Origin: Agriterribacter humi
Lineage (GTDB): Bacteria > Bacteroidota > Bacteroidia > Chitinophagales > Chitinophagaceae
Reading direction: 5' to 3'
Assembly: GCF_009192765.1 (NCBI RefSeq)
Contig: NZ_VOHQ01000003.1
Coordinates: forward strand, 372,001-436,000
Length of the DNA: 64,000 nucleotides
A model generated the notes under the pieces. That model did no database searches, was not told where the DNA came from, and saw nothing but the letters and a program-made list of their open reading frames with translations. The position numbers and the translations under genes were made by a program. Shown here in pieces: positions 3,358 through 54,798 of this stretch. Numbering within the stretch: position 1 is the stretch's first letter; the number at the start of each line of letters is the position of its first letter.

Positions 3358-3471
3358 ATGGGAAGAGGTGATAAAAAAACAAAAAAGGGGAAAATATCGC
3401 AGGGATCATTTGGCAAAAGCCGCCCCGCTAAACCTGCTAAAGCCAAGACCGCCCCAAAAAAGCCAGAATAG
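3358..3471 (+). CDS. 30S ribosomal protein THX
   Basis: A 37-residue, very basic reading frame starting MGRGDKKTKKGKISQGSFG and continuing GKSRPAKPAK. This is the pattern of the small Bacteroidota ribosomal protein THX, which sits in the head of the 30S subunit; the MG(K/R)GDKKTKKGKI start is nearly diagnostic. The last ten or so residues are an A/K/P-rich tail ending KKPE, somewhat longer than in short relatives. It lies between the HU terminator and the repeat element at 3485. Confidence 0.85.
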   Translation: MGRGDKKTKKGKISQGSFGKSRPAKPAKAKTAPKKPE

Positions 3472-3484
3472 CACGGCAGGCTGA

Positions 3485-3619
3485 GAGCTTATAGCTTATG
3501 GTTTGTAGCTTGTTACAGGTTACAGGTTTCAGGTTTCAGGTTACAGGTTACAGGGAAGCACAGACACAATCCGTTGATTGCTTATACCTGTAACCTGGAT
3601 ACCTCATACCTGACACCTC
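3485..3619. repeat. Inverted-arm repeat element without gene (element 1), against the pdxH stop
   Basis: The left arm (about 3485-3554) is built of degenerate words such as TTACAGG and TTTCAGG. The right arm (about 3583-3619) carries the same words on the other strand. CAGGTTACAGGT at 3516-3527 is exactly matched by ACCTGTAACCTG at 3586-3597. The arms enclose a spacer of about 28 bases with no gene. The right arm ends at the base before the pdxH stop codon (3620-3622). The architecture matches the two elements that enclose four-helix-bundle genes in the arginine operon. Confidence 0.7.
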
Positions 3620-4264
3620 CTACGGCGCAAGCCGTTCTATTTTCCATTCATTATTATTTTGCAAAGTATATTGTATGCGATCATGTAAACGGCCCGGTCT
3701 GCCCTGCCAGAACTCCATAATTACCGGACGAACAATATACCCTCCCCAGTAATCGGGTCTTTTAATCGTTTTGCCGGATAATCGTTTTTTATTTTTTTCA
3801 TACCGTTCATCTATCCATTCCCTGCTTTCTATTACCCGGCTTTGCGGCGATGTAACTGCGCCAATACGGCTTTCTTCGGGTCGCGATTGAAAATAAGTAT
3901 CACTTTCTTCAGGTGTTGCTTTTTGAACCAGTCCGGTGATACGCACCTGCCGTTCCAGCTCTTTCCAGAAAAAAACCAGGCAGGCCTTGGGATTATTGTC
4001 TAATTGCTGCGCCTTAAAGCTTTCGTAGTTGGTGAAGAACATAAATCCTTTTTCGGAAAAGCCCTTTAACAAAACGATACGTGCCGATGGAATACCATCC
4101 GGTGAAGCGGTGGCAAGCGCCATAGCATTTACTTCATCAATTTCAGACAGCACAGCTTCCTGCCACCACTTGTTAAACTGTTTAACGGGATCATCTTCTG
4201 CATCATCTTCCAATAAAACTTTTTGGGAATAATTAAGACGGATGGTGGCTATTTCACTTTTCAT
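3620..4264 (-). CDS. pdxH: Pyridoxamine 5'-phosphate oxidase
   Basis: The 214-residue enzyme oxidises pyridoxine or pyridoxamine 5'-phosphate to pyridoxal 5'-phosphate using FMN. Family signatures: DPVKQFNKWWQEAV near residue 30, MALATASPDGIPSARIVLLKG for FMN binding, FFTNYESFKAQQL, the SRPEESRIGAVTSPQS segment, and the C-terminal PVIMEFWQGRPGRLHDR that binds substrate. Translation is taken from MKSEIATIRL at 4264; the longer frame to 4357 adds 31 residues untypical of the family and would overlap the promoter. Transcribed away from the SNF2 gene. Confidence 0.95.
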   Translation of the reverse strand: MKSEIATIRLNYSQKVLLEDDAEDDPVKQFNKWWQEAVLSEIDEVNAMALATASPDGIPSARIVLLKGFSEKGFMFFTNYESFKAQQLDNNPKACLVFFWKELERQVRITGLVQKATPEESDTYFQSRPEESRIGAVTSPQSRVIESREWIDERYEKNKKRLSGKTIKRPDYWGGYIVRPVIMEFWQGRPGRLHDRIQYTLQNNNEWKIERLAP

Positions 4265-10035: not shown

Positions 10036-10104
10036 GTGTGTAAGTTACAAGTTGCAGGTTTCAAGTCGCAGGGTTGAATACAAGCGTCTCAGGTTTTAGA
10101 TACG
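10036..10104. repeat. Left arm of element 2
   Basis: Degenerate words of the AGGTTTCAAG / TTGCAGG type fill this stretch directly after the argH start codon. GTTGCAGG at 10051-10058 is exactly matched in inverse orientation by CCTGCAAC at 10600-10607 in the right arm, on the far side of the four-helix-bundle gene. Confidence 0.6.
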
Positions 10105-10113
10105 GGAAATTCG

Positions 10114-10476
10114 TTAAGGTTTGCTGAAACTCACTGAATATACGTTGATCTTTTCGCTAAGAGATTCATATTCTGCCCTGATTCTTTTATAATTATTTTC
10201 GTCTTTTAATGATTGTGTTTCAAAAAGAAAATCCAAATGTATTATTGTTTCATCGCATTCAGAATGTGCGTATACCAGAAATTTTATAACATCCGCCTTG
10301 TATCTCTTTCTGCCATATCCTTCAACAATGGAAGAAGTAACACTTTTCGAAGAACGTCTTATTTGTGATCCTTCCTCATACAATTCAAATTTTGGTAATG
10401 TCAACGTGATCTTATGAATTTCAATCGCCAGTTGTTTTGATTCTGCATATATCTGCAGATCATGCTAACTTTTCAT
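10114..10476 (-). pseudogene. Four-helix-bundle (S23-like) protein gene with stop at codon 4
   Basis: From the ATG at 10476 the frame reads M-K-S-stop and then continues without further stops as [20 protein letters not shown] and on to FSKP, 120 codons in all. Members of the 23S-rRNA-intervening-sequence / four-helix-bundle family usually begin M-x-(x)-[YF]-xDL-x-[IV]-[WY], so TAG at 10467-10465 most simply replaces a Tyr codon. The later [20 protein letters not shown] matches the family core (SQIRRA..S...NIAEG). Translation could only begin downstream, for example at the TTG at 10404, losing most of helix 1. It lies inside element 2 between argE and argH. The function of the family is not established. 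Confidence 0.75.
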
Positions 10477-10527: not shown

Positions 10528-10612
10528 ACTTCCCTGCCCCCTGTAACCTGGAACTTTCACCCTGCATTACGTATTTCCCCTGTACCTTGCATCTTGTACC
10601 CTGCAACCCGCT
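10528..10612. repeat. Right arm of element 2, against the argE stop
   Basis: Words such as CCTGTAACCTG, CCCTGCA and CCTTGCA are repeated here in the inverse orientation to the left arm. CCTGTAACCTG is the same word found in the right arm of element 1. The arm ends next to the argE stop codon (10613-10615). Confidence 0.65.
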
Positions 10613-12632: not shown

Positions 12633-12712
12633 AATATTTCTTCGGCAGGCGTCATTTTGTTACGCAACGCTTTGGCTCTTTCAAAAATCAGGTTGCCTGC
12701 ACCATAGAACAT
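12614..12712 (-). pseudogene. Remnant of a DUF559 (Vsr-like endonuclease) gene
   Basis: From the ATG at 12712 the frame reads MFYGAGNLIFERAKALRN, then KMTPAEEILWKKIY and a stop. This is the N-terminal pattern of the DUF559 family, proteins of about 110-130 residues related to very-short-patch-repair-type endonucleases. Everything after the first 32 residues, including the putative nuclease core, is missing. The fragment overlaps the 5' end of argB in another frame. The G/C-rich stretch just upstream (about 12736-12775, on the minus strand CCCTTCGGGAGGAGAGGG) resembles boilerplate repeats I associate with such genes. Confidence 0.65.
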
Positions 12713-12841
12713 ATTGCTTTCCCCGACTCCCTTTCCACCCTCTCCTCCCGAAGGGACGCTATAATATTTATTTGAAAGGAATATTTCCACTTTGCATTTT
12801 ATTGTAGTTATGCAAATTATTTTGCTCTTGCCAGCGCCCCT

Positions 12842-13861
12842 CTAAGAGATGGCGGTTAACATTTCTGACAAAACCGCCTGTGCCGCCCATACCCGGTTGG
12901 AAGCCTGCAGCGTAACAATACTGCTGGATCCGTCTAATATTTCATCGCTCAGTTCCACATTTCTTCTTACTGGCAGGCAGTGCATTACTTTTGCATTACT
13001 GGTTAAGCTTAATTTTTCATTCGTCAGCATCCACTCCGGGTCATTGCAATATATTTTTCCGTAATCCTTATATGTACTCCAGTTTTTTACATATACAAAA
13101 TCGGCGTCTTTCAGCGCCTCTTCCTGGTTATGTGTTATAGCTGCACCCTTCGTAAATTTTTCATCCAACTCGTAATCTTCAGGATGAGTAATCGTAAAAT
13201 CAGCTTCTCCCCATGCATTCACCCATTGCGAAAAACTATTGGCTACACACTGAGGCAATGCTTTTACATGCGGGGCCCAGGCGAGCACAATTTTGGGTTT
13301 GCAATTTGTGATTTGTGGTTTGTGGTTTTGCAGAACCTCAGTAATAGTTATAATATCCGTTAAGCTTTGTAAAGGGTGTAATGTGGCGCTTTCAAGACTT
13401 ACTACAGGAATACCGGCATATTTAATAAACTGATTGATGTATAACTCGCTGTAATCGTCTTCCCTGTTTTTTAAAGAAGGAAAAGTACGGATACAAAGGA
13501 TATCAAAATATTTGCCCATAATAGGAGCCGCATCTTTTACATGTTCCACTTTATTTCCGCTCATGATGGCTTCATCTTCAAATTCCAAAGCCCAGCCTTC
13601 GCTGCCTACATTAAATACGATTGCTTCCATCCCTAAATTCTGCGCAGCAATTTGCGTGCTTAAACGGGTTCGCATGCTGGGGTTCAGAAATAACAGGCCT
13701 ATGCGTTTATTGAGTCCCCTTGTTTTGTGCATGAACGGATCTGCCTTGTATGTTAAAGCCAGCTTTGCCAAAGCATTAATATCATTTACGTCATTTGCAG
13801 AAACAAACCGGGCAATGCCGGATGGTGGAATTTGGAGCAGTTCTTTTGATTCGAAACCCAT
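12842..13861 (-). CDS. argF': N-acyl-ornithine transcarbamylase (probably N-succinyl-ornithine type)
   Basis: A 339-residue transcarbamylase of the Bacteroidota/Xanthomonas branch that carbamoylates N-acyl-ornithine. The carbamoyl-phosphate motif is FLNPSMRTRLST (residues 58-69), followed by HPLQSLTD (162-169) and MHCLPVRRNVEL near the C-terminus. In Bacteroides fragilis succinyl-ornithine transcarbamylase a Pro, and in Xanthomonas acetyl-ornithine transcarbamylase a Glu, occupies the position before EH; here it is Val105 in GNKVEH. Published swaps of that Glu to Pro, Ser, Val or Ala converted the enzyme to succinyl specificity. Residues 178-190 (QNHKPQITNCKPK) look like an insertion encoded by an intergenic repeat word. 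Confidence 0.9.
   Translation of the reverse strand: MGFESKELLQIPPSGIARFVSANDVNDINALAKLALTYKADPFMHKTRGLNKRIGLLFLNPSMRTRLSTQIAAQNLGMEAIVFNVGSEGWALEFEDEAIMSGNKVEHVKDAAPIMGKYFDILCIRTFPSLKNREDDYSELYINQFIKYAGIPVVSLESATLHPLQSLTDIITITEVLQNHKPQITNCKPKIVLAWAPHVKALPQCVANSFSQWVNAWGEADFTITHPEDYELDEKFTKGAAITHNQEEALKDADFVYVKNWSTYKDYGKIYCNDPEWMLTNEKLSLTSNAKVMHCLPVRRNVELSDEILDGSSSIVTLQASNRVWAAQAVLSEMLTAIS
13296..13333. repeat. Intergenic repeat word inside the argF' reading frame
   Basis: On the plus strand this stretch reads as tandem variants of ATTTGTGGTTT and ends in TTTTGCAG. It closely resembles ATTTGTGGTTTATGGTTGCA at 44661-44680, which is intergenic. Here it encodes residues 178-190 of the transcarbamylase, a place where the Bacteroides enzyme, as I remember it, is about seven residues shorter. 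Confidence 0.55.
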
Positions 13862-13932
13862 TTCTTAATGATTATAAAAGCGTACAATATTTTTATAAGT
13901 CTTTTCTTCTTCTTATTCTAAAGTGCATGTGG

Positions 13933-15084
13933 CTATGCTTCCTGAACAACCATAGCGGCAATTTCTTCTTTGATAGCCTCAATAAAATCTTCAGCGTCTC
14001 TTTTTTTCAAAGCCAAAGAAGGCAATAAGCGGATGACATTGGGCTTGGCCTCTCCCGTAAATATTTTCTGGTTCAGCAACAAATTCTTTTTTAAATCTTT
14101 CAATGCCTCAGGCACATCAAATCCAATCATCAAACCCCTGCCACGAACATTTTTCAGTTCAGGAATATTCTTTAATGCTTCTTTCAAATATTTACCCACC
14201 ATTACCGCATTGCCTAATAATTTTTCCGATTCTAATACTTCTAATACGGCCAGCCCTGCAGCACAGGCTAAATGGTTACCGCCAAATGTGGTGCCCAACT
14301 GAAAATGTTTGGGCTTAATATGCGGTGCAATAATAATACCCGCTACCGGAAATCCGTTGCCCATGCCTTTGGCCATGGAATAGATGTCGGCTTTTACGCC
14401 GGCAAAATCGTGACTGAAAAATTTCCCTGTTCTTCCATAACCACATTGCACACTATCGGCAATGTATACTGCACCATATTCATCACATAAACTGCGGATC
14501 TTTTTCAAAAAGCTGTCTTCCGCCACATTAATGCCGCCAACCCCCTGTATGCCTTCTATAATAACTGAAGAAATTTCTTTGCCATTTTTTACAAAGCAAT
14601 CTTCTAAAGCCTGTTCATCGTTGAACGGAAGAAAGAGTACATTCCCGGTTTCATTTATGGGAGCGACATAATTTTTATTATCCGTAACGGACACCGCTAA
14701 TGATGTACGTCCGTGAAAAGATTTACTGAAAGCCACTACCTTTTTTCGGCCGTTATGAAAGGAGGCCAGTTTTAAAGCATTTTCATTGGCTTCGGCGCCG
14801 CTGTTGCACAAAAAAAGCTGATAGTCTTCCTTGCCGGATAACTTTCCAAGTTTGGTTGCCAGTTCCTGCTGCAGGGGAATTTTAATGGAATTGGAATAGA
14901 AAGCTATTTTTTTTAGTTGGTCTTCTATGCGCTGAACCCAATGGGGGTGTGTATGCCCTATGGAAATAACGGCATGTCCGCCATACAGGTCAAGGTATTG
15001 CTCTCCTTTATCATCCCACACATAAGAACCTTTGGCTTTTACAATATTGATATTGTTGATGGGATAAACGTTGAATAAGTTCAT
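13933..15084 (-). CDS. argD: Acylornithine aminotransferase
   Basis: A 383-residue class III PLP aminotransferase converting N-acylglutamate semialdehyde to N-acylornithine. Motifs: YLDLYGGHAVISIGHTHP near residue 30, LFLCNSGAEANENALKLA near 95, SFHGRTSLAVSVTD near 130, and the PLP lysine in SMAKGMGNGFPVAG near 240. The usual Asp-Glu-x-Gln after the cofactor strand is ADSVQCGYGRTG, so Glu is replaced by Ser, which is uncommon. It sits between the four-helix-bundle element and argF' in the operon. Confidence 0.93.
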   Translation of the reverse strand: MNLFNVYPINNINIVKAKGSYVWDDKGEQYLDLYGGHAVISIGHTHPHWVQRIEDQLKKIAFYSNSIKIPLQQELATKLGKLSGKEDYQLFLCNSGAEANENALKLASFHNGRKKVVAFSKSFHGRTSLAVSVTDNKNYVAPINETGNVLFLPFNDEQALEDCFVKNGKEISSVIIEGIQGVGGINVAEDSFLKKIRSLCDEYGAVYIADSVQCGYGRTGKFFSHDFAGVKADIYSMAKGMGNGFPVAGIIIAPHIKPKHFQLGTTFGGNHLACAAGLAVLEVLESEKLLGNAVMVGKYLKEALKNIPELKNVRGRGLMIGFDVPEALKDLKKNLLLNQKIFTGEAKPNVIRLLPSLALKKRDAEDFIEAIKEEIAAMVVQEA

Positions 15085-15103
15085 GGTATTAAAATATTTT
15101 TTT

Positions 15104-15160
15104 TGGTGTAGGGTATTAGGTGTACGGTATAGGGCCTAAGGTGTAGGGTATAAGGTGCAT
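15104..15160. repeat. Left arm of element 3
   Basis: Degenerate tandem words with GGTGTAGGGT at 15105-15114 and again at 15140-15149. Both are exactly matched in inverse orientation by ACCCTACACC at 15577-15586 in the right arm. The arm lies between the argD start and the four-helix-bundle stop. Confidence 0.7.
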
Positions 15161-15164
15161 GCTG

Positions 15165-15518
15165 CTATCGCAAAAATTTTAGGAATGCTATCAGCATTCC
15201 TCTGGTCTCATTTATCATTTTGTTTACTATTGTGTATTCCGCATGGTTAATATAGCTCAGTTCAGATGCGGCAAAGCAACAATAGTCAGTTTCGTTTACC
15301 GATCCTAATGAATTATTAAGAAAGTGAGCAAAGTCTTTCTCTGTATCCCTTCCACATACTTCTGCAATATTCAGTGGTATAGACAGTGCCGCTCTTTGTA
15401 ATTGAGAGGTCAGTTCGTATTTTTCTTTCCTATGAAATTTCACCACAATAACTTTTTTAATATGCAAATACAATTCATGTGATTTCCTCCATACTTCAAG
15501 CTTTTTATAGTCTCTCAT
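15165..15518 (-). CDS. Four-helix-bundle protein (S23 / 23S rRNA-intervening-sequence family)
   Basis: A 117-residue protein from MRDYKKLEVWRKSHEL, which is the standard start of this family; the frame to 15539 adds seven residues. The core reads ELTSQLQRAALSIPLNIAEVCGR, matching the family's LTSQIRRAA.SIP.NIAEG, then FLNNSLGSVNETDYCCFAA on helix 3. The fold is known from structures of relatives but no biochemical function is established. The gene interrupts the arginine operon between argC and argD and is enclosed by inverted repeat arms. Unlike the copy at 10114 it is intact. Confidence 0.88.
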   Translation of the reverse strand: MRDYKKLEVWRKSHELYLHIKKVIVVKFHRKEKYELTSQLQRAALSIPLNIAEVCGRDTEKDFAHFLNNSLGSVNETDYCCFAASELSYINHAEYTIVNKMINETRGMLIAFLKFLR

Positions 15519-15564
15519 AACTGGTGTTTTAGTTAGCAAACTTTATTGAGAAGAATATTTCTCC

Positions 15565-15593
15565 TTACAACCTCACACCCTACACCCACCTCT
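15565..15593. repeat. Right arm of element 3, against the argC stop
   Basis: CACACCCTACACCCACC-like words lie here in inverse orientation to the left arm at 15104-15160. The arm ends at the base before the argC stop codon (15594-15596), the same placement as in elements 1 and 2. Confidence 0.65.
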
Positions 15594-16589: not shown

Positions 16590-16634
16590 GTTTATAGTGG
16601 TGTCATGTTTATCATAAAACGAGGTATTTTTTTC

Positions 16635-16664
16635 CACGCATGCACGAATGTTCGTGCATGCGTG
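16635..16664. promoter_or_regulatory. Long perfect palindrome upstream of argC
   Basis: CACGCATGCACGAA (16635-16648) and TTCGTGCATGCGTG (16651-16664) are exact reverse complements separated by two bases. The centre lies about 60 bases before the argC ATG. Neither side has a T run, so it is unlikely to be an intrinsic terminator. It may be an operator or an RNA hairpin between argG and argC. Confidence 0.5.
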
Positions 16665-16699
16665 ACTATATCTTTGATAATTTACGCTTACTTAACAGT

Positions 16700-16760
16700 A
16701 GTATGAGGTTTAAGAAATAAGCTATAAGGTATCATATCCTCCACCTTATACCTGTTTATT
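16700..16760. repeat. Degenerate repeat running into the argG stop codon
   Basis: Words AGGTTTAAG, AAGGTATCA and, inversely, CCTCCACC and TTATACCTG fill this stretch. The last word includes the argG stop codon (TAA on the minus strand, 16748-16746) and its last sense codons. No gene is enclosed. Confidence 0.45.
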
Positions 16761-30635: not shown

Positions 30636-31372
30636 ATAAAGCCAAAAAATGTTGGCGAAGTTACAGAAATATAAGCTATTGAGCGGCATATTGTTCCTGT
30701 GTGTGCGTTCACTACAGGGTTGGCATGATTATTCTGAAGTTATAACAGGAAGCATTTTAAAGCCATAATGAATAAGGTGTGGTTATTTGAATTACCGGAT
30801 GTTGATGATTCAGCAAATGAGGAAAGCGGAACCCGATAATCTTCCGCTAATCTTCAGGTATGCATATACGGTAGATGATGCAGATGCGGGAATAATTTCC
30901 CCATCATAACCAAAAGTGTGTGTGCATTTACACAATGCGCACAAAATAAAACAGGAGGAAGTGTAAAGAAAGGTTATACCTCAAAGTGGTTATAAGGTTT
31001 GTAATCAATGGTATTTAATGAGGTGAAAGATGTTCACTTATCCACATCTTTAAAGTTTGGCACAGTTTCTGAAAATTAAAGACTTACATACGAAGACAGC
31101 AGCATTTTAAGTAAGTGTTTTCATTCTTTAAATACAAACACATAGATTTCTTTAAATAAAAATACTAAGTTTTTCCAGGGTTTAGGGATTAGGGATCGAG
31201 GGGAGCAGTCGTGCTCCCTTCTTCTTTTACATAACCGCCGGACTAAAAATAGAGAGCTTATTTTTTTATTGATTTTGCATTATTTTAACAACACTCTTAT
31301 TTAATCAGTGCTGTCGTTCACTTCTACTTTCAGTCAGTATCCTTTTTTAGAAAATACATCTAACGCTTTGGG
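30636..31372. other. Long non-coding region between ileS and the nitroreductase gene
   Basis: 737 bases without a recognised gene, upstream of ileS and downstream of the nitroreductase. It contains two short unsupported frames (23 codons from 30768, 36 codons from 30799), a perfect DnaA-box TTATCCACA at 31038-31046, and a terminator-like hairpin at 31201-31218. Nothing else could be named. Confidence 0.55.
31201..31228. terminator. Terminator-like hairpin
   Basis: GGGAGCA (31201-31207) pairs perfectly with TGCTCCC (31212-31218) across GTCG, followed by a T-rich stretch on the plus strand. It is well placed to end transcripts in the gap, though on the minus strand it is 155 bases past the nitroreductase stop. 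Confidence 0.5.
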
Positions 31373-31957: not shown

Positions 31958-31965
31958 ACATTAGT

Positions 31966-32149
31966 TTTTAAAGGTTTCAGGTTTCAGGGAAAACGCGTTT
32001 CCATCTGGGCCTATCGTTTATTATATGTGGTTTATGGTTGCATTTGTCTTCGGATTTCGAAATTTAATTCTTCGGGGTTTTGTATCTACCATGGCGGACA
32101 GGATTTTTTTGTTTTTTGTAGTTTGGTTCTGGGTTCTTTGTCTTTCCGA
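31966..32149. repeat. Degenerate repeat region next to the hemJ stop
   Basis: The gap between hemJ and the nitroreductase gene is filled with family words: AGGTTTCAGGTTTCAGGG at 31973-31990, TGTGGTTTATGGTTGCA at 32026-32042, then CTTCGGATTTCGAAA and GTAGTTTGGTTCTGGG. The 17-mer TGTGGTTTATGGTTGCA recurs exactly at 44664-44680. Confidence 0.6.
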
Positions 32150-32692
32150 TTATTTCCTCCCCTTGGATTCTTTCTCCCTCAGCCTTCTGTATACTTTTAT
32201 TGCACTCATTAAAGCAATTACAAAAGCTATTAGTCCCAATAATCCCCAGGCCCAGCTCATATTTTGTTTTACGGAAACCAGCATTACAATAGCAACCAAA
32301 AAAATGGTCGCTACTTCATTCCATATTCTTAATTGCCGGGATGACCAGCGGAAAATGCCTTTCATTTGCTGGGTGTAAATGTGTTGCAGGGAAAAATGAT
32401 ATAAAAATAATCCCAGTACAAAGCAAAGTTTAATAATCAGCCAGCCTGGCAGAGAACCCAGCATATACCACATCCATGATCCGAAAACGAGGGTAAGTAC
32501 AGCAGAAGGCCAGGTAATGCCCATCCACAATCTTTTGATCATAATACGGTACTGGTCGTGGAGTATGGTTTTGGCCGGTTCCGGTTTTTCTGCGGCTTCC
32601 GTATTGTAAATAAACAGGCGCACTATGTAAAACATACCGCTGAACCAGGTTACTATAAAAATAATATGAAGCGCTTTAATGTAGAAGTACAT
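32150..32692 (-). CDS. hemJ: Protoporphyrinogen IX oxidase HemJ (CopD-like)
   Basis: A 180-residue membrane protein of the HemJ family, which oxidises protoporphyrinogen IX in heme synthesis. The N-terminal YIKALHIIFIVTWFSGMFYIVRLFIY carries the conserved heme-ligand His, and four further hydrophobic helices follow with the W-x-K-L-type LIIKLCFVLGLFLYHF near residue 85. It is only five bases after the flippase gene, so the two are likely co-transcribed. Confidence 0.85.
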   Translation of the reverse strand: MYFYIKALHIIFIVTWFSGMFYIVRLFIYNTEAAEKPEPAKTILHDQYRIMIKRLWMGITWPSAVLTLVFGSWMWYMLGSLPGWLIIKLCFVLGLFLYHFSLQHIYTQQMKGIFRWSSRQLRIWNEVATIFLVAIVMLVSVKQNMSWAWGLLGLIAFVIALMSAIKVYRRLREKESKGRK

Positions 32693-41692: not shown

Positions 41693-41794
41693 GCCTTAAA
41701 GTAAAAGAAAATGTTGTTGATGCAGCCATTGCAAAACGCCAATCGCAGCACCAACAACACCAAAAGTTCATATAAAGACGTTGTGCTATACTCG

Positions 41795-41879
41795 TGTTAT
41801 GTCAAACGTGAGACGTGAAAGTTCATTTCACGTCTCACATCTCACGATAATATACAGACATAATTTGATTGACTTGACA
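41795..41879. repeat. Palindromic repeat element against a stop codon
   Basis: GTGAGACGTGAAA (41808-41820) and TTTCACGTCTCAC (41826-41838) pair perfectly over 13 positions with a five-base loop. Outer parts GTGTTATGTCAA (left) and TTGACTTGACAC (right, to 41879) are also nearly inverse. The element ends at the base before the stop codon of the gene at 41880, the same placement as the other elements. Confidence 0.55.
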
Positions 41880-42260
41880 CTAGCTCTTTTCCTTCAATTC
41901 GTCCACAACCAAACCCTGCAAACCACCTTTTGTTGAGGCAGTACCCTTAACCGTAATTTTTTCGCCGGCATGATCTTTTATTTTGGCATACGCCTCTTTT
42001 TTATCGTGATTTTCCACCAGTAAGTATATTTTGCCATCACTGGTAAGTAAGCCCATTGGGGCGCCACCCTTTATACACGCTGCAGCACATCCCTTATGCT
42101 TTTCACCGTGAGCGCCCTTAGCCATATAGCAGGCCATGTCGAGCACTTCGCCTGAAACTGTTTTGGATTCATCCTGCGCATTTGCTCCAAAAGCGAAGAA
42201 ACAAAAGCTTACGGTTGCAAGCATTGCTGTTTTGCGAAAACTAAAATGAAGACTTTTCAT
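41880..42260 (-). CDS. Exported cysteine-containing protein of unknown function
   Basis: A 126-residue protein: signal peptide to about residue 29 (MLATVSFCFFAFGANAQ), then VSGEVLDMACYMAKGAHGEKHKGCAAACIKGGAPMGLLTSDGKIYLL. The pattern of three Cys (MACY, KGCAAACIKGG) with His nearby suggests metal or heme binding, and the remainder (KITVKGTAS, VVDELK) looks like a small OB-fold. I recall similar sequences annotated only as hypothetical exported proteins. Periplasmic location inferred. Confidence 0.6.
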   Translation of the reverse strand: MKSLHFSFRKTAMLATVSFCFFAFGANAQDESKTVSGEVLDMACYMAKGAHGEKHKGCAAACIKGGAPMGLLTSDGKIYLLVENHDKKEAYAKIKDHAGEKITVKGTASTKGGLQGLVVDELKEKS

Positions 42261-42522: not shown

Positions 42523-44613
42523 ATGAAAGATTATAAAAGAATTTTGGTTACAGCGGCATTACCCTATGCAAATGGGCCGGTGCATATAGGTCATTTGGCA
42601 GGCTGTTATATACCTGCGGATATTTATGTACGTTACCAGAGAGCGCAAAAACAGGATATTAAATTTGTGGGCGGCAGCGATGAGCACGGCGTTCCTATTA
42701 CCATCAGGGCTATGAAAGAGGGGGTGAGCCCGCAGCAGATCGTTGATAAATATCATGCTATCATTAAAGATAGTTTTGAAAAGATGGGCATTTCATTCGA
42801 CATCTATTCACGAACAACCAACCCTGTTCATCATAAAACAGCAGCAGATTTTTTTAAGAAATTGTATGATGACGGGTTGTTTGAAGAAAAAGAGACGGAA
42901 CAATTCTACGATGAAAAAACCAATACTTTTTTAGCCGACAGGTATATCACCGGTACCTGTCCTGTATGCGGGAATCCTAACGCTTATGGCGATCAGTGCG
43001 AAAAATGCGGGTCATCGCTTAGCCCCGAACAACTCATTAATCCCCGCAGCACCCTGAGCGATGCTGTGCCGGTAAAAAAATTAACCAAACACTGGTATTT
43101 CCCTCTGCAAAATTATGAACCGTGGCTTAAGCAATGGGTGCTGGAAGATCATAAAGAATGGAAGAATAACGTATACGGACAATGTAAAAGCTGGTTGGAT
43201 AATGGATTGCAAAGCAGGGCGATGACACGCGACAGCAACTGGGGCGTTAAAGTTCCATTGCCTGGTACTGAAGGCAAAGTATTGTATGTATGGTTTGATG
43301 CGCCCATAGGCTATATCAGTGCAACAAAGGAGCTAACAAAACAATGGGCGGATTACTGGTGTAAAGAAGATACCAAACTGGTGCATTTTATTGGTAAAGA
43401 TAATATCGTATTTCATTGTATCATTTTTCCGGCCATGCTTAAAGCGCATGGTGGCTTTGTGTTACCCGATAATGTACCTGCTAATGAATTTTTAAATATT
43501 GAAGGAGAGAAAGTTTCTACCAGCCGCAACTGGGCGGTATGGGTACACGAATACCTCAAAGATTTTCCGGGATGCGAAGATGTATTGCGGTATGTGCTAT
43601 GTGCCAATGCTCCCGAAACCAAAGACAATGATTTTACCTGGAAAGATTTTCAGGACAGGAATAACAGTGAACTGGTATCCATTTTCGGCAACTTTGTAAA
43701 CCGGTCGCTGGTGCTCATGCATAAATTGTGCGGCGGCAAAGTGCCCCCTTTTCATAATGCCATTATTGATGGAGATGATAAACAGCTTATGGAGGATATC
43801 AAGGCTGCTAAAATAAAAGTTACACAATCCATAGAGGAATACAGGTTTAGGGAAGCTTTGTTCGAGATCATTGACCTGAGCCGCAAGGGTAATCAATATC
43901 TTCAAAAAAAGGAACCCTGGAAGAAAGCCGGCGCGGAAAACGGGCAGCAACAAATAGATAATTGTATCCACCTGAGCCTGCAACTCACAGCTAATCTTGC
44001 CATTCTCATCAACCCGTTTTTACCCGTCACTGCGCGGAAAATATTACATATGCTGAAAGTGGTAGAAAAAATGTTAGACTGGGAAAACGCAGGCAGCTTC
44101 AAATTACTGAGCGTGGGATATACTTTACGTGCGCCTGAATTGCTGTTCAGAAAAATAGAGGATAGTGAAATAGCCGCACAGGTGGAGAAGTTGAGGGCAA
44201 ATGCTATTGCCGGTTCCAATACGCAAAATGTTGAAAAAAAATCTGCCGGAGGCAATGTGGTTCAGCCGATGGAAAATATGCTTAAGCAGGAAATTGTTTA
44301 CGACGATTTTGCAAAATTGGATCTGAAAACAGGGAAGATATTATCTGCCGAAAAAGTAGAAAAAGCGGATAAACTGTTAAAGCTGGAAATTGATCTTGGT
44401 TTCGAGAAGCGCATTATTGTTTCGGGCATTGCATTGCATTTCAAACCTGAAGAGATTATTGGGAAACAGGTGGTAGTTGTTGCTAACCTGGCACCCCGTA
44501 AAATGCGCGGTATTGAAAGCAATGGTATGATATTGATGGCAGAAGATAAAAACGGCAAGCTGCATTTTATAAATACCGAAGAAGCAATAGAACCGGGAGC
44601 GGGGGTGAGTTAG
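42523..44613 (+). CDS. metG: Methionyl-tRNA synthetase
   Basis: A 696-residue class Ia synthetase. HIGH-like motif [22 protein letters not shown] at the N-terminus, a zinc knuckle with two pairs (CPVCGNP, CEKCGSS) near 150, and the KMSKS-type loop as [12 protein letters not shown] near 330, a variant usual in Bacteroidota. The C-terminal 110 residues are a tRNA-binding (EMAP/Trbp111-like) domain: [36 protein letters not shown]. The start [10 protein letters not shown] at 42523 is preferred over the frame from 42502. Confidence 0.95.
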
Positions 44614-44733
44614 GAGCGGGGTTGCAGGTTTCAGGGTGCAGGTTACAGAGTGTGCTTATCATTTGTGGTTTATGGTTGCAGTTTATAGTTGCATTTCTCT
44701 TCGGACTTCGAATTCCTGGCTTCGAACTTGCTC
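44614..44733. repeat. Repeat block filling the gap between the metG and SDR stop codons
   Basis: All 120 bases between two convergent stop codons consist of family words: GGTTGCAGGTTTCAGGG, TGCAGGTTACAG, ATTTGTGGTTTATGGTTGCA (44661-44680), GTTTATAGTTGCA, then CTTCGGACTTCGAATTC and CTTCGAAC. The block begins right after the metG stop and ends right at the SDR stop (44734-44736). Confidence 0.7.
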
Positions 44734-45423: not shown

Positions 45424-45471
45424 AATGTGAAATATACAAAAAAACCGGCTGCCGCCGAAGTCTGGGGACAT

Positions 45472-45510
45472 TTCAAATTTTAAATATCAAATATCAAATC
45501 TCAAATCCTG
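45472..45510. repeat. Short TCAAAT repeat against the sprA stop
   Basis: About four copies of an ATATCAAAT-like word lie between the SDR upstream region and the sprA stop codon (45511-45513), and the last copy ends directly at the stop. The word differs from the CAGGTT family, but the placement is the same. Confidence 0.45.
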
Positions 45511-48500
45511 TTATTGCGCCAGCGATATATTAACCTGTACGCCTGCCCTTGTAGTTACCATTGGCGCTGAGGAAGAAATATAAGGTATGGTTCTTTGCTG
45601 GTCGAAATAGAATTTTAGTTGTATACGATTGCTTAATACATAATCAATAGAAGGGTTTATAGTGATCACTTTTTGTCCCTGGGTAGCAAAAGCGTTGGCC
45701 TGGTCGAGCCGGCTGTTGGAAGTAATATTGTCCGTTACGCTAAAGTCTATGGTAAATTTCACATCGCTTTCGGCTCTTTTACTGGTCGTATCTGAGCTTT
45801 TATTGAACAGGTTAATGTTGAAAGGCAATGAGAAGCCGCGTATACGCCATGATGCGTTAAGATTGATGCCTGAAGAGCGCATTTCGCTTAGCTGGTAATC
45901 AATAAGACTTAAACTCAGGGTGCGGCTTTTAATATATTCAAATCTTACGGCTAACTGGTTGGTCAATGAAAAATCAATGCCCAGCAATGGGGCAAACTGC
46001 TCTTCTATAGTAATATTGGGCACTAAAAAGTAGGGAATGAAATTGTTGGACATGGTGTCCAGGAAAGAAGGGAAGCCCAGTCTCCACCTGTCCTGGAAAA
46101 GCAGGTTGGAATTAAATGCATTCATCCCGAGTGTGCTCTTGTAATCGTGACGAAGGGTAAAGCTGGTGAATATTTTATCTAAAGGTGCAATGCGGTTCAG
46201 TCCGCTATATTCAATATGCCAGTTCGGTTTTGGCAGGTACCCCGAAAACGGGTTGGAACGCACATTGGTTCCGCCTGTTTTTAACAGCGATACCTGGTTA
46301 GGATCTTTATTGGTATAAGCAGCAACAAAAGAAGGAATCAGCACATCCTGCGCATACCGGCTGTATCCGAGGTAATATCCATCAGACCCTTTTACCTGGC
46401 TGTATGGATTTTTAACGCCTAATCTTTCCGACATGATCAGCCTGTAGTCCTGGAATTTTTGGAAAGTTTCGCTGATAAGATTAGGGTCGGTTTTTTTGAA
46501 TAAGGTTTGAAATGCAATATAGCTGATGCTGAAACCGCCGCCTGCGTAGGGATTAAGATGCCCAAACTGCCCGTTCCCGATCGTATCTTTAAACAATTCG
46601 CTATATGTTCGGTTGAACGTTTTGCTCAGGCTAAGATCAATACGCAGGTCACGTACAGGCTCTAATTGAGCGGTGGCCGTAAACTGCTGATCAAAGGTTT
46701 GGCGTGTCAGATTATTCTGAAGACTGTCTCTTGATATCCACCCTTTTTGTGCTGCCCTGTCGAGCCAGGCACTATTGGGTTGGTTCCCCAAAATAAAACC
46801 CAGTCCCGGAGCCATGCTGCCCCAGTTTTGCCCCAGGTATTTTGTGCTGTCGGTATAGCCAGGAATAAATGAAGTAGCACCCTCACTGTAAGTAAAGTTA
46901 ATCCGTTTAACGGATGTGATGATTTTACCGATACCTTTTACAAAACCATTCAGTTCGGGTAATTCATTCGGGTCGCGTTTTTTTCCGGTATTGGAAGTGT
47001 CAGCTTTTTGATTGCCTGCTGCCGGTGGTGGTTTGGGAGCGTTATCGCCCTGTTGCTCTAATGCCCTCAATATCCTGAATTTGCCATACAGCCTGTTAAA
47101 ATCAAGATCAACCGTAGCGGATTTTGCATTGCTGTTTTGTATGGTATTGCCGAGGTTAATGGCTAACCGCGATGCGCCTATCCAGCTATAGGTTGTTTTA
47201 TATGCAAGGTTTGCGTTTGTCCAGTCTAATAGTGGCAATTTGGAAGTGGGTAATGAATAGGTAAGGTCAGTTCTTTGATTATACAATACATTTCTTCCTC
47301 CTTTAAACAAATTTTTGAATACGGTATCTTTTTTGGCTTTATTATCCAGTCTGCCGGCAGGCTCATCTATCCTGGCATTATTCATTGCTTCAAAATCGAA
47401 ATTCAGAGAGCGGCTGATATCCCAGCGATAATTATAATGCCTGTCGAAAGTAAAAAACTTGTCGTAGGTTTCCGGTATTTTAAAGGGGCTGGGAGCGGTG
47501 CCGGGAACGTATACTTCACGTGGCCGCAAGGCCCCAAACTGCCGGTTCACATCCCAACGTATACCAATAAGCGAAGGAGTGAAATTGAGATTAAAATCAC
47601 GGACCATAGCAAGCCATGCCGATTTACTTTTGAACATATTTTTGAATGGCTCCCACGATTTTACCTGGCCGGTGTAATTGTATCCTATACCCGCTTTATA
47701 TTTTTTTATCTCATTGTTTTCAACCAGCGGATTGTGCTGTTTGATGGAAGTATAGGAGTAGCTGAGATCGAAATTGGAAATACTCCAGATCCTTTGCCGT
47801 TTACCTTCGGGCAGCACCTTCCGCACATTGGTGAAATTGACTGTTTTAATAGTGGTGATATCAATGGCTGCATTTCTTATAGAATCTTTTAAATTACCCT
47901 GTGCCGCCCCCAGCTTGTCTTTCAGTTTGATATCCATATCATAAGGGTCGTATTCCGGTGTGCTTATGGTTTGGGATACACTGGCGTAAAAAGGAATTTC
48001 TATTCCTGCGCCCCGGGGTAATAATTTGCCCAGCTCAAGGTTGGCAGCAGCATCAAACTGAACAAAATTATCTCTTGCCCTTTCGTTTACTCTTTGCTCC
48101 AGAGCCCCAAAGCCAACGCTATGCGTGTTGCCCGAAAAGGTAAGGGTACCCAAATCAGCAAGTGCAAGATCAACCCTGCCCAATGCGGCCCATCCTCCTT
48201 TTTCATCAATTTGTGAAAGCCGCAATTCATTTATCCATACTTCGGTACAAATGGGTGATCCTGTGCCATCGCCTGGATTTTCAATACCTACCAGAAATCC
48301 TTTTACCTCACCAAAGTTGGGATTACCGATTACTGAATACGTACGGTTATCAACGGTTGTGCGGTAAATGGCATTGGGATTAACCAATTGGAGGTTTCTT
48401 TCTGCCTTTAGTTGTTCTAATATTCCGAGATCAAAATCAAGATTGTTTTCTTCCGGCCATATATCTGTATCGGCAGTAGCACCGGAAGGAGTAATTTTCA

Positions 48501-53696: not shown

Positions 53697-54689
53697 ATGA
53701 GTTCAAAAATTACTGCCGCTATTACTGCTGTTGGTGGTTATGTGCCTGAATATCGCCTGACCAATGCTGAACTGGAAAAAATGGTAGACACCAATGACGA
53801 GTGGATACGTACACGCACAGGAATAACGGAAAGAAGGATATTGAAGGGCAAAGATCTAGGTACATCTGATATGGTAGTGCCGGCAGTGCAGGAAATTTTA
53901 GACAAAAGAAAAATAAGCGCTGAAGAAATAGATTGTTTAATTGTTGGAACTGTTACACCTGATACTATATTTCCTTCTACTGCAAATATTGCCTGTTATA
54001 AACTGGGTGCTGTAAATGCATGGGGATTTGACCTGGCGGCTGCCTGTTCAGGATTTTTATATGCTTTAACTACCGGAGCGGCCTTAATAGAAAGCGGACG
54101 TTACAAAAAAGTTATAGTAGCCGGAGGAGACAAAATGAGCGCCATAGTTGACTATAGTGACCGTACTACGTGCATTATTTTTGGTGATGGTGCAGGCGCT
54201 GTTTTACTGGAGCCCAATACGGAAGGATATGGTGTGCTGGATAGTATTTTAAGAAGCGATGGCGCAGGCGGGCATCACCTGCATATGAAAGCAGGAGGTT
54301 CTCTTAAGCCCGCATCCATAGAAACGGTTACCAATAAAGAGCATTATATATACCAGGAAGGGCAACCTGTGTTTAAGCATGCCGTAAGGGATATGGCGGA
54401 TGTAAGCTATGAATTAATGCAGCGTAACCAGTTGGGCGCCGACGATATAGCCTGGCTGGTTCCGCACCAGGCCAATAAGCGTATTATTGATGCCACAGCC
54501 AACCGCATGGGACTGCCGCATGAAAAGGTGATGCTCAATATTCAAAAGTTCGGCAATACAACCGCAGGTACTATTCCGCTTTGTTTATGGGAATGGCAGG
54601 ATCAGTTGAAAAAAGGAGACAAGATTGTACTGGCTGCTTTTGGCGGAGGGTTTACCTGGGGATCTACATTGATTAAATGGGGATGTTAA
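53697..54689 (+). CDS. fabH: 3-oxoacyl-ACP synthase III
   Basis: A 330-residue thiolase-fold enzyme that starts fatty acid synthesis by condensing acetyl-CoA with malonyl-ACP. Motifs: [16 protein letters not shown] near residue 35, the catalytic Cys in [17 protein letters not shown] near 115, the active-site His in [13 protein letters not shown] near 255, and Asn in [11 protein letters not shown] near 285. The start [10 protein letters not shown] at 53697 follows family practice. It is convergent with plsX, while in many genomes fabH follows plsX in the same direction. Confidence 0.94.
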
Positions 54690-54798
54690 ATCATTTATGG
54701 GTTGTCGTTTATAGTTTATTGTTAGGTGCATGCGGGCTATAGAATATTTCCGGTAACCTCACCCGTACTTATTGCCGCAGTAACCTGGCCGAAATCCA
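54690..54798. repeat. Repeat words after the fabH stop
   Basis: Starting directly after the fabH stop codon, ATCATTTATGGGTTGTC and GTTTATAGTTTATTG (about 54690-54725) resemble words at 44658-44692. The rest of the 109-base gap up to the plsX stop also contains inverse GGTAACCTCACCC and GTAACCTGG words. Confidence 0.5.

Follow-up and report, generated by a model that had tools for sequence, protein, structure and literature searches.

The 64,000-nucleotide stretch of the Agriterribacter humi genome considered here (the window; contig NZ_VOHQ01000003.1, positions 372,001 to 436,000) carries an arg operon together with pdxH, metG and fabH, and the gaps between its genes hold blocks of degenerate short-word repeats. 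An earlier note on this DNA had described nine unrelated repeats that meet stop codons in almost every case, and had proposed either insertion aimed at gene ends or selection against insertions elsewhere. The blocks are real, and lag-7 scoring shows them to be one phenomenon, namely degenerate tandem arrays that repeat every seven bases and lie mainly in intergenic DNA. Two genes overlooked earlier, both in the arg operon and both flanked by arrays, encode S23 proteins (PF05635, 23S rRNA-intervening sequence protein). One of these is located between argC and argD; the other, adjoining the arrays next to argH and an M20 deacylase gene, appears by eye to be truncated at its 5′ end relative to the copy of a congener (G008). 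It is S23 that proves to be the telling partner of the arrays, and the notion that they are aimed at stop codons is only partly right. Throughout, G000 denotes the genome of the window, G001 to G011 its 11 congeners, and L-numbers loci fetched from the family or from plasmids.

The periodicity was scored in a 464-kb sample, comprising 20 stretches and the window, by counting scoring frames with at least 21 of 35 matches at a given lag. At lag 7, 1213 of 57878 intergenic frames passed, compared with 131 of 377691 coding frames, whilst the remaining lags from 3 to 13 each gave 3 to 154 intergenic frames. Within the window this procedure recovered most of the blocks (Table 1), one array absent from the earlier list (31174-31208) and three more within called genes. 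The arrays are built from several word families, including GTTACAG, GTTTATA, GTGAGTA, GGTATAA, GCTGATA and GATTTGA, which, when aligned in phase, share a skeleton of approximately RGTKWVW (fit 0.154, compared with 0.092 to 0.095 with permuted columns). As the words share one skeleton, the repeats are not unrelated, as had been claimed, and instead form a single polar family of heptads. An 18-base word pair, allowing up to two mismatches, occurs at 241 places in the genome and its reversed control at none; the same pair is found at 1 to 160 places across the 11 congeners and at 0 to 2 in 11 genomes from other genera of the family, where heptads of different words are present in the fetched loci. 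The pattern GTTNCAG likewise differs strongly across the genus, with 308 places in G000, 205 in G006, 9 in G007, 2 in G011 and none in G001. GGG is absent from the most frequent words, among them AGTTTAT and AGATTTG, and quadruplexes are an unlikely common cause because most words are devoid of G-tracts. In G006, a 154-nt unit repeated in tandem about five times (C126:56778-57503) resembles a composite heptad array at L095:4686-4828.

Table 1. Arrays, S23 genes and associated features of the window, with the blocks recovered by lag-7 scoring
Feature	Position	Strand	Lag-7 blocks	Context
37-aa open reading frame (ORF)	3358-3471			array at 3474 starts just beyond its stop (by eye)
Array pair	3474-3634		3474-3564, 3577-3634	gap between stop of 37-aa ORF (3471) and pdxH (TIGR00558) stop (3620); G-words to ~3555, C-words from ~3577; final bases overlap pdxH end
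G-word array, GTTACAA type	10036-10104		10039-10077	between argH start (10035) and S23-like gene
S23-like gene	10114-10404	-		PF05635, profile positions 22-105 of 106, E 1.9e-18
C-word array	10528-10612		10532-10611	abuts M20 deacylase stop (10613); partner of 10036-10104
G-word array, GGTGTAG type	15100-15164		15100-15165	argD start (15084) to S23 stop (15165)
S23 gene	15165-15518	-		PF05635, E 5.8e-32; TIGR02436 four helix bundle protein, E 1.3e-29
C-word array, CTACACC type	15558-15593		15565-15593 (laxer threshold)	abuts argC stop; partner of 15100-15164
argG-argC gap, 156 nt	16590-16745		16698-16737	heptad words and perfect palindrome; argG stop to ATG matching G006 argC start
Perfect 14-bp inverted repeat, 2-nt spacer (GCATGCACGAA...)	16635-16664			within argG-argC gap
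Array new relative to earlier note	31174-31208		31174-31208	
Composite array	31961-32149		31961-31995, 32105-32145	nitroreductase start (31957) to stop at 32150
Element resembling a miniature inverted-repeat transposable element (MITE)	41786-41885			ends TAGTGT...TCAA / TTGA...ACACTA; approximate edges, judged by eye
Composite array	44607-44733		44607-44690	metG stop (44613) to SDR stop (44734)
C-word array, TCAAATA type	45460-45510		45460-45507	abuts stop at 45511
G-word array, GTTTATA type	54687-54732		54687-54732	abuts fabH stop (54689)

The association with S23 extends well beyond the window. A profile search of ORFs in the fetched Bacteroidota loci identified 23 S23 genes, of which 20 have an array within 150 nt on both sides and 22 on at least one side. 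Among other genes the corresponding numbers are 65 and 563 of 2164, and for those of at most 200 aa, 10 of 442 are bracketed on both sides. G-rich skew on the left with C-rich skew on the right accompanies 13 of the 20 bracketed S23 genes, compared with 8 of the 65 others. The two arms around an S23 gene also resemble each other (identity 0.628, compared with 0.534 after shuffling; n = 20). At the argC-argD junction, where 12 species carry S23, the arms of one species match each other better (0.722) than arms taken across species (0.607; permutation p 5e-5), and the words from which they are built differ between species; a comparison of left arms with left arms gives 0.663, a value that takes in 30 nt of S23 coding sequence. 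In 20 of the 23 Bacteroidota cases, and in 12 of the 14 cyanobacterial cases described below, the two flanks of S23 form a stronger predicted duplex than swapped flanks do. In this test it is the contrast between own and swapped flanks alone that counts, since control genes are also strongly paired (mean -48.1, n = 318).

The cyanobacterial cases derive from a search with the S23 protein against 72,556 plasmids, which returned 14 records, all from cyanobacteria. Arrays lie on both sides of S23 in 12 of these at two thresholds and in 11 at a third, compared with 1 to 6 of 84 other coding sequences from two plasmid stretches. The array words on the plasmids differ from those of Bacteroidota, and in L197 inverted arms are visible although the period of 7 is not clean. 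The neighbouring genes are varied: cas6-S23-cas4 occurs twice and cas10-S23-cmr3 once (L193, L196 and L197), in another case ribonucleotide reductase genes flank S23 on both sides, and further gene pairs are also found. These plasmid copies are situated between annotated protein genes and those of the window in the arg operon; none is inside a 23S rRNA gene. No S23 relatives were found in viral contigs.

Comparison of congeners reveals S23 genes in various states at the same junctions. Between argC and argD, where arms and remnants were judged by eye, S23 with arms is present in G000, G006 and G004. Decayed S23 lies between arrays on both sides in G010, G009 and G008, and beside an array on one side in G003 and G005; a remnant without arrays is seen in G001, and neither S23 nor arrays in G002, G007 and G011. 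Both arms of G008 at this junction belong to another word family. At the argE-argH junction (seven of the 11 congeners), again judged by eye, the S23 gene is long in G008 and shorter in G000. G006 and perhaps G009 retain remnants, G010 has arms alone, G002 and G004 hold several word families, and G007 contains other sequence.

Elsewhere in the genus, a gap may be empty in one congener while its orthologs in others carry arrays built of differing words, which shows that gene junctions gain arrays. Next to fabH, the gaps of G009 and G010 (13 and 27 nt) lack arrays, those of G000 and G006 contain related ones, and that of G008 has another family. Between SDR and sprA, TCAAATA words are present in G000 and GCTATGG and GTTTATA words in G002; no heptad words were seen in this gap in G010 or G007. 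The 12842-13933 gap is array-free in G000, whilst in G002, G003, G004 and G005 the whole gap of 24 to 54 nt is array (by eye). Between argG and argC there are 3 nt in G006 compared with 156 nt in the window, with both coding sequences kept; the argC start used here was taken from G006. The comparison that the earlier note had called for finds the same gaps empty or filled with other words, and its interpretation is partly supported, in that arrays are gained.

The arrays are polar. Heptad word patterns, which were picked after inspection of the data, were used to orient the words in 187 gaps from the window's own genome and the congeners. Where both orientations are present, G-words precede C-words in 38 gaps and the reverse order was not observed, with one gap each scored as CGC and GCG; 56 gaps contain G-words only, 51 C-words only, and 40 were unclassified. 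The order of the arms varies with the scoring rule: base skew gives 34 G-then-C gaps and 5 reversed, and an earlier rule gave 28 G-C pairs, two CG gaps and one CGCCC. In the window's own genome, words within 30 nt of a stop are G in 35 cases and C in 5 when the stop is on the left, and C in 32 and G in 6 when it is on the right, the rest being undecided; the same scoring at starts gives C 9 and G 2 on the right, and G 9 and C 3 on the left. On these counts, the usual reading direction of the words is away from the closest gene end, independent of the strand of the gene. In 75 of the 107 gaps with a single orientation (17 of 24 in the convergent subset), the G-words lie closer to the gene on their 5′ side. 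Word polarity is weaker at starts than at stops, and skew polarity at starts is confounded by local base composition. Skew polarity at boundaries is also weak in the family loci, which are not a random sample of junctions, as all were fetched around argD, and some perhaps come from the same genomes as the congeners.

The relation of array edges to stop codons was assessed in 1.004 Mb of the window's own genome (48 stretches, 787 called genes, 222 blocks and 617 gaps, 131 of them with blocks). Forty of the 222 blocks lie mostly inside called genes, and 45 blocks without a gap assignment were excluded; gene starts are rough because a simple codon-usage caller was employed. An edge was counted when the outermost block edge lay within 15 nt of a boundary, and the null was drawn from 500 randomisations that take no account of promoters. 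At stops, an edge is present in 78 of 150 cases (52.0%; null 28.7%), a proportion that no randomisation reached, whereas at starts the value is 29.5% of 112 (null 25.7%, p 0.15). In tandem gaps of at least 150 nt, 46% of stops have an edge where 16% is expected, and 20% of starts against 16%; in convergent gaps alone, 28 of 58 edges are near a stop (null 27.9%). The congeners give 60.0% of 60 stops (null 38.6%) and 30.8% of 52 starts (null 31.8%), and the family loci 64.9% of 94 stops (null 46.3%) and 53.7% of 82 starts (null 45.7%, p 0.03). The block share of gap sequence in the 1.004 Mb is 11.1% in convergent, 7.4 to 7.6% in tandem and 2.0% in divergent gaps.

The excess of edges at stops described by the earlier note is therefore real and greater than chance, and its stop-codon edges were recovered at 3620 (pdxH), 10613 (the M20 deacylase, which it called argE), 15594 (argC-like), 16746 (argG), 41880 (a gene for which no protein family was found), 44613 (metG), 44734 (SDR), 45511 (a 2414-aa ORF that it called sprA) and 54689 (fabH). 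Some edges meet starts instead. The array at 10036-10104 adjoins the start of argH rather than a stop, that reported at 15104-15160 lies between the argD start and the stop of the S23 gene that had gone unnoticed, and that reported at 31966-32149 has one edge at a start and the other at a stop. Nothing observed favours the stop codon itself as the target. Rather, arrays occupy intergenic gaps and are bounded by coding ends, and their scarcity in divergent gaps is what selection near promoters would give. Among 21 genes ending at arrays, 19 of them with orthologs, the C-terminus is mostly conserved and the sequence after the stop differs; an exception is L098 gene 11325, whose C-terminal end differs and was apparently written by the array. 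TAA is less frequent where an array abuts the stop, both in the own-genome sample (30 of 78, compared with 383 of 670 elsewhere, p 0.0025) and in the congeners (7 of 37, compared with 196 of 333, p 3e-6). In the former sample the base following an abutted stop is G in 32 of 78 cases, compared with 108 of 670 elsewhere, and many arrays begin with GGAGG-like runs outside the heptad phase.

Two further regions of the window are of note. The hairpin at 41795-41879, listed in the earlier note as a related block, failed lag-7 scoring and is part of the MITE-like element, which encloses inverted CGTGAGA-type heptads. The element is also found at L098:2681 and L142:4830 and, judged by eye, probably in L147, L170, L171 and L179. 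The gap at 12633-12841 is absent or shorter in most congeners, and its right part resembles the start of what we take to be a DUF559-type protein.

A model that accommodates these observations, and to which we assign roughly even chances, is that the blocks are the arms of an element resembling the intervening sequences (IVSs) of 23S rRNA, living in gene junctions and mostly gene-less. The full form would consist of a gene's stop codon, a G-rich heptad array, an S23 gene encoding a four-helix bundle, an inverted array of similar words and the start of the next gene. Most copies would lack the gene and retain both arms or, after decay, one. Because such an element would sit between two genes, its left arm would meet the left gene and its right arm the right gene, which would account for the polarity, the edges at stops and the single arms. 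Gene-less arrays would share their origin with those that bear S23, and the unit would be mobile. By analogy with 23S rRNA IVSs, the arms may pair in the transcript and be cut in the manner of IVS ends, the S23 protein may participate, and slippage, together with copying from one arm to the other, may renew the words. In a broader version, which is tentative and must be regarded as rather doubtful, S23 would write, copy or maintain inverted heptad arms in a class of selfish gene-junction elements spanning phyla, with words that drift and complementarity that is kept; the heptads known from cyanobacteria, Xanthomonas and Bacteroidetes would then belong to this class as arms, with 23S rRNA IVSs as its special case in rRNA.

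A number of observations weigh against the proposal. The S23 cases are not independent, with 12 of the 23 at the argC-argD junction, near-identical arms in L076 and L077, and near copies in L205 and L206. S23 protein identity has a median of 46% both within that junction and to other S23 proteins, which is compatible with a single old insertion there as well as with several. Only 13 of the 20 bracketed genes display the predicted skew, both arrays of L201 have the same orientation, and the extra C-words to the left of S23 in G004 and G010 are not predicted by a simple pair of arms. One orientation only is found in 107 of the 187 gaps scored by words in this genome and the congeners, and 1.004 Mb of the former contains 4 S23 genes compared with 131 gaps with blocks. 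The arms of gaps in general match weakly (0.566, compared with 0.536, p 0.01; 4 of 51 pairs reach 0.75). In the own-genome sample, a hidden Markov model detected S23 remnants in 1 of 123 array gaps and in none of 382 array-free gaps, and the single positive gap adjoins the window's own S23-like gene. The scarcity of remnants speaks against a general origin of the arrays as relics of S23 genes; together with the weak arm match in general gaps, it is the reason why we infer, rather than observe, that all arrays descend from S23 cassettes.

An alternative scenario is that arrays form where DNA has broken: each 3′ end in the gap would be extended by copying G-rich heptads out of existing arrays, and the ends would then be joined, sometimes trapping a fragment such as S23; loss of the gap would be tolerated up to the stop codon and not through promoters. 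Outward polarity and the G-then-C order follow directly from this scheme, as would the gaps of 24 to 54 nt that consist wholly of array in four congeners, a convergent gap where G010 and G001 have hairpins and G000 and G006 have arrays in their place (by eye), and the TAA deficit, as if arrays rebuilt the stops they abut. It leaves unexplained, however, why S23 should be the gene between the arms, and palindromes at arm junctions are not in significant excess (3.62 compared with 3.38, p 0.15). A telomerase-like product or that of a diversity-generating retroelement was rejected, as no PF00078 reverse transcriptase match was obtained in G000 (0 of 4 candidates scored), G006, G008, G009 or G011, which include the genomes richest in GTTNCAG words (G000, G006 and G009). 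Ku-dependent joining was likewise rejected: Ku is absent from the array-rich G009, and the three array-poorest genomes also have none. On balance we consider the broken-end scheme unlikely, though it is the main rival. Regularity along the array is 0.683 compared with 0.620 in gene-abutting arrays (p 0.003) with no such trend in other arrays, from which nothing can be concluded because the blocks are clipped at gene ends.

It is less probable still that the arrays are ordinary seven-base microsatellites, arising by slippage from common seed words and kept where harmless, with S23 tolerating or favouring such flanks. A period of 7 is coprime to 3, and would hence be tolerated mainly outside genes; divergent gaps are array-poor, and polymerase slippage is an idea already cited for heptamers in the available text of Rehm et al. 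(PMC4692102). Slippage nevertheless offers no reason for outward polarity, for the bracketing of S23 or for the matched arms around it. The position after stops and the inverted order could instead suggest transcription terminators or hairpins at mRNA 3′ ends, a reading that the folding data render very improbable. Gaps fold alike with arrays (z -1.01, n = 86) and without (-0.83, n = 120), as do the 80 nt beyond the stop (-0.42, n = 68, compared with -0.81, n = 150; p 0.21); in convergent gaps it is the array-free ones that are more structured (-3.01, n = 9, compared with -1.39, n = 16). Arrays also occur within operons and at starts, and with no excess folding the hairpin or terminator explanation was discarded.

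The IVS-like model can be set beside several known systems. Repetitive extragenic palindromes and bacterial interspersed mosaic elements (REP/BIME), with their REP-associated tyrosine transposases, combine numerous short inverted repeats between genes with a small number of candidate helper genes. Y1 transposases are encoded in all 12 genomes of the genus, but the arrays have a period of 7, and no fixed palindrome or tag was seen, none having been sought. The Coxiella IVS has a 28-bp terminal stem cut by RNase III and is called selfish in the accessible part of the report (PMC4990558). The present elements resemble 23S rRNA IVSs in encoding an S23 (PF05635) ORF within complementary ends, as judged from arm identity and the duplex tests; they differ in lying between protein genes, in having as ends heptad arrays whose words vary between species, and in being mostly gene-less. 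Rehm et al. (2015; PMC4692102), in the portion available, describe the heptamers GGGAATC in Xanthomonas and GGGGA(C/T)T in Nostoc, report an outward placement of these G-rich words, and state that their role remains to be elucidated. Common to both sets of repeats are the period of 7, the intergenic location, the outward placement and the paucity in divergent gaps, although the last two are weaker in the family loci. S23 relatives exist in both groups of hosts (XCC0516, PDB 2gsc, and those of Nostoc plasmids). The arrays here, by contrast, comprise many degenerate families, mostly without GGG runs, and the same portion of that paper draws no link to S23.

Direct repeats of TAACTGA occur in Beggiatoaceae, some cyanobacteria and Bacteroidetes and, according to the text at hand, are intergenic heptamers that in some cases follow stop codons (MacGregor 2015, PMC4679880). 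As described there, TAACTGA is a single fixed word in forward orientation that in the main genome lies mostly just 5′ of starts, whereas the present arrays have many words and favour stops. In the Nostoc trnL intron, TDNGATT and NNTGAGT heptads form part of the P6b stem (PMC4476775, available excerpt). A tandem GATTTDN pattern is found at 127 places in G000 compared with 1 for its reversed control, and TGAGTNN at 45, for which the reversed control is the identical pattern; on the excerpt, the Nostoc heptads are inside an intron stem, and the likeness to the present words is one of word class alone. A link between S23 and heptads was not found in the titles and abstract openings among the papers listed, in which subscription journals are thinly covered, and may still be in print.

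The association described here joins two orphans, the bacterial heptad repeats of obscure role and the S23 proteins that lie outside rRNA. If the IVS-like model is correct, it would explain why the edges of these repeats fall at stop codons, and S23 would offer a direct genetic test of the repeat maker. It would also define a class of elements that enters core operons, including those for arg, ribonucleotide reductase and cas genes, whilst leaving the coding sequence unbroken. As the same arrangement is present on cyanobacterial plasmids, it may represent an overlooked and widespread gene-junction element.
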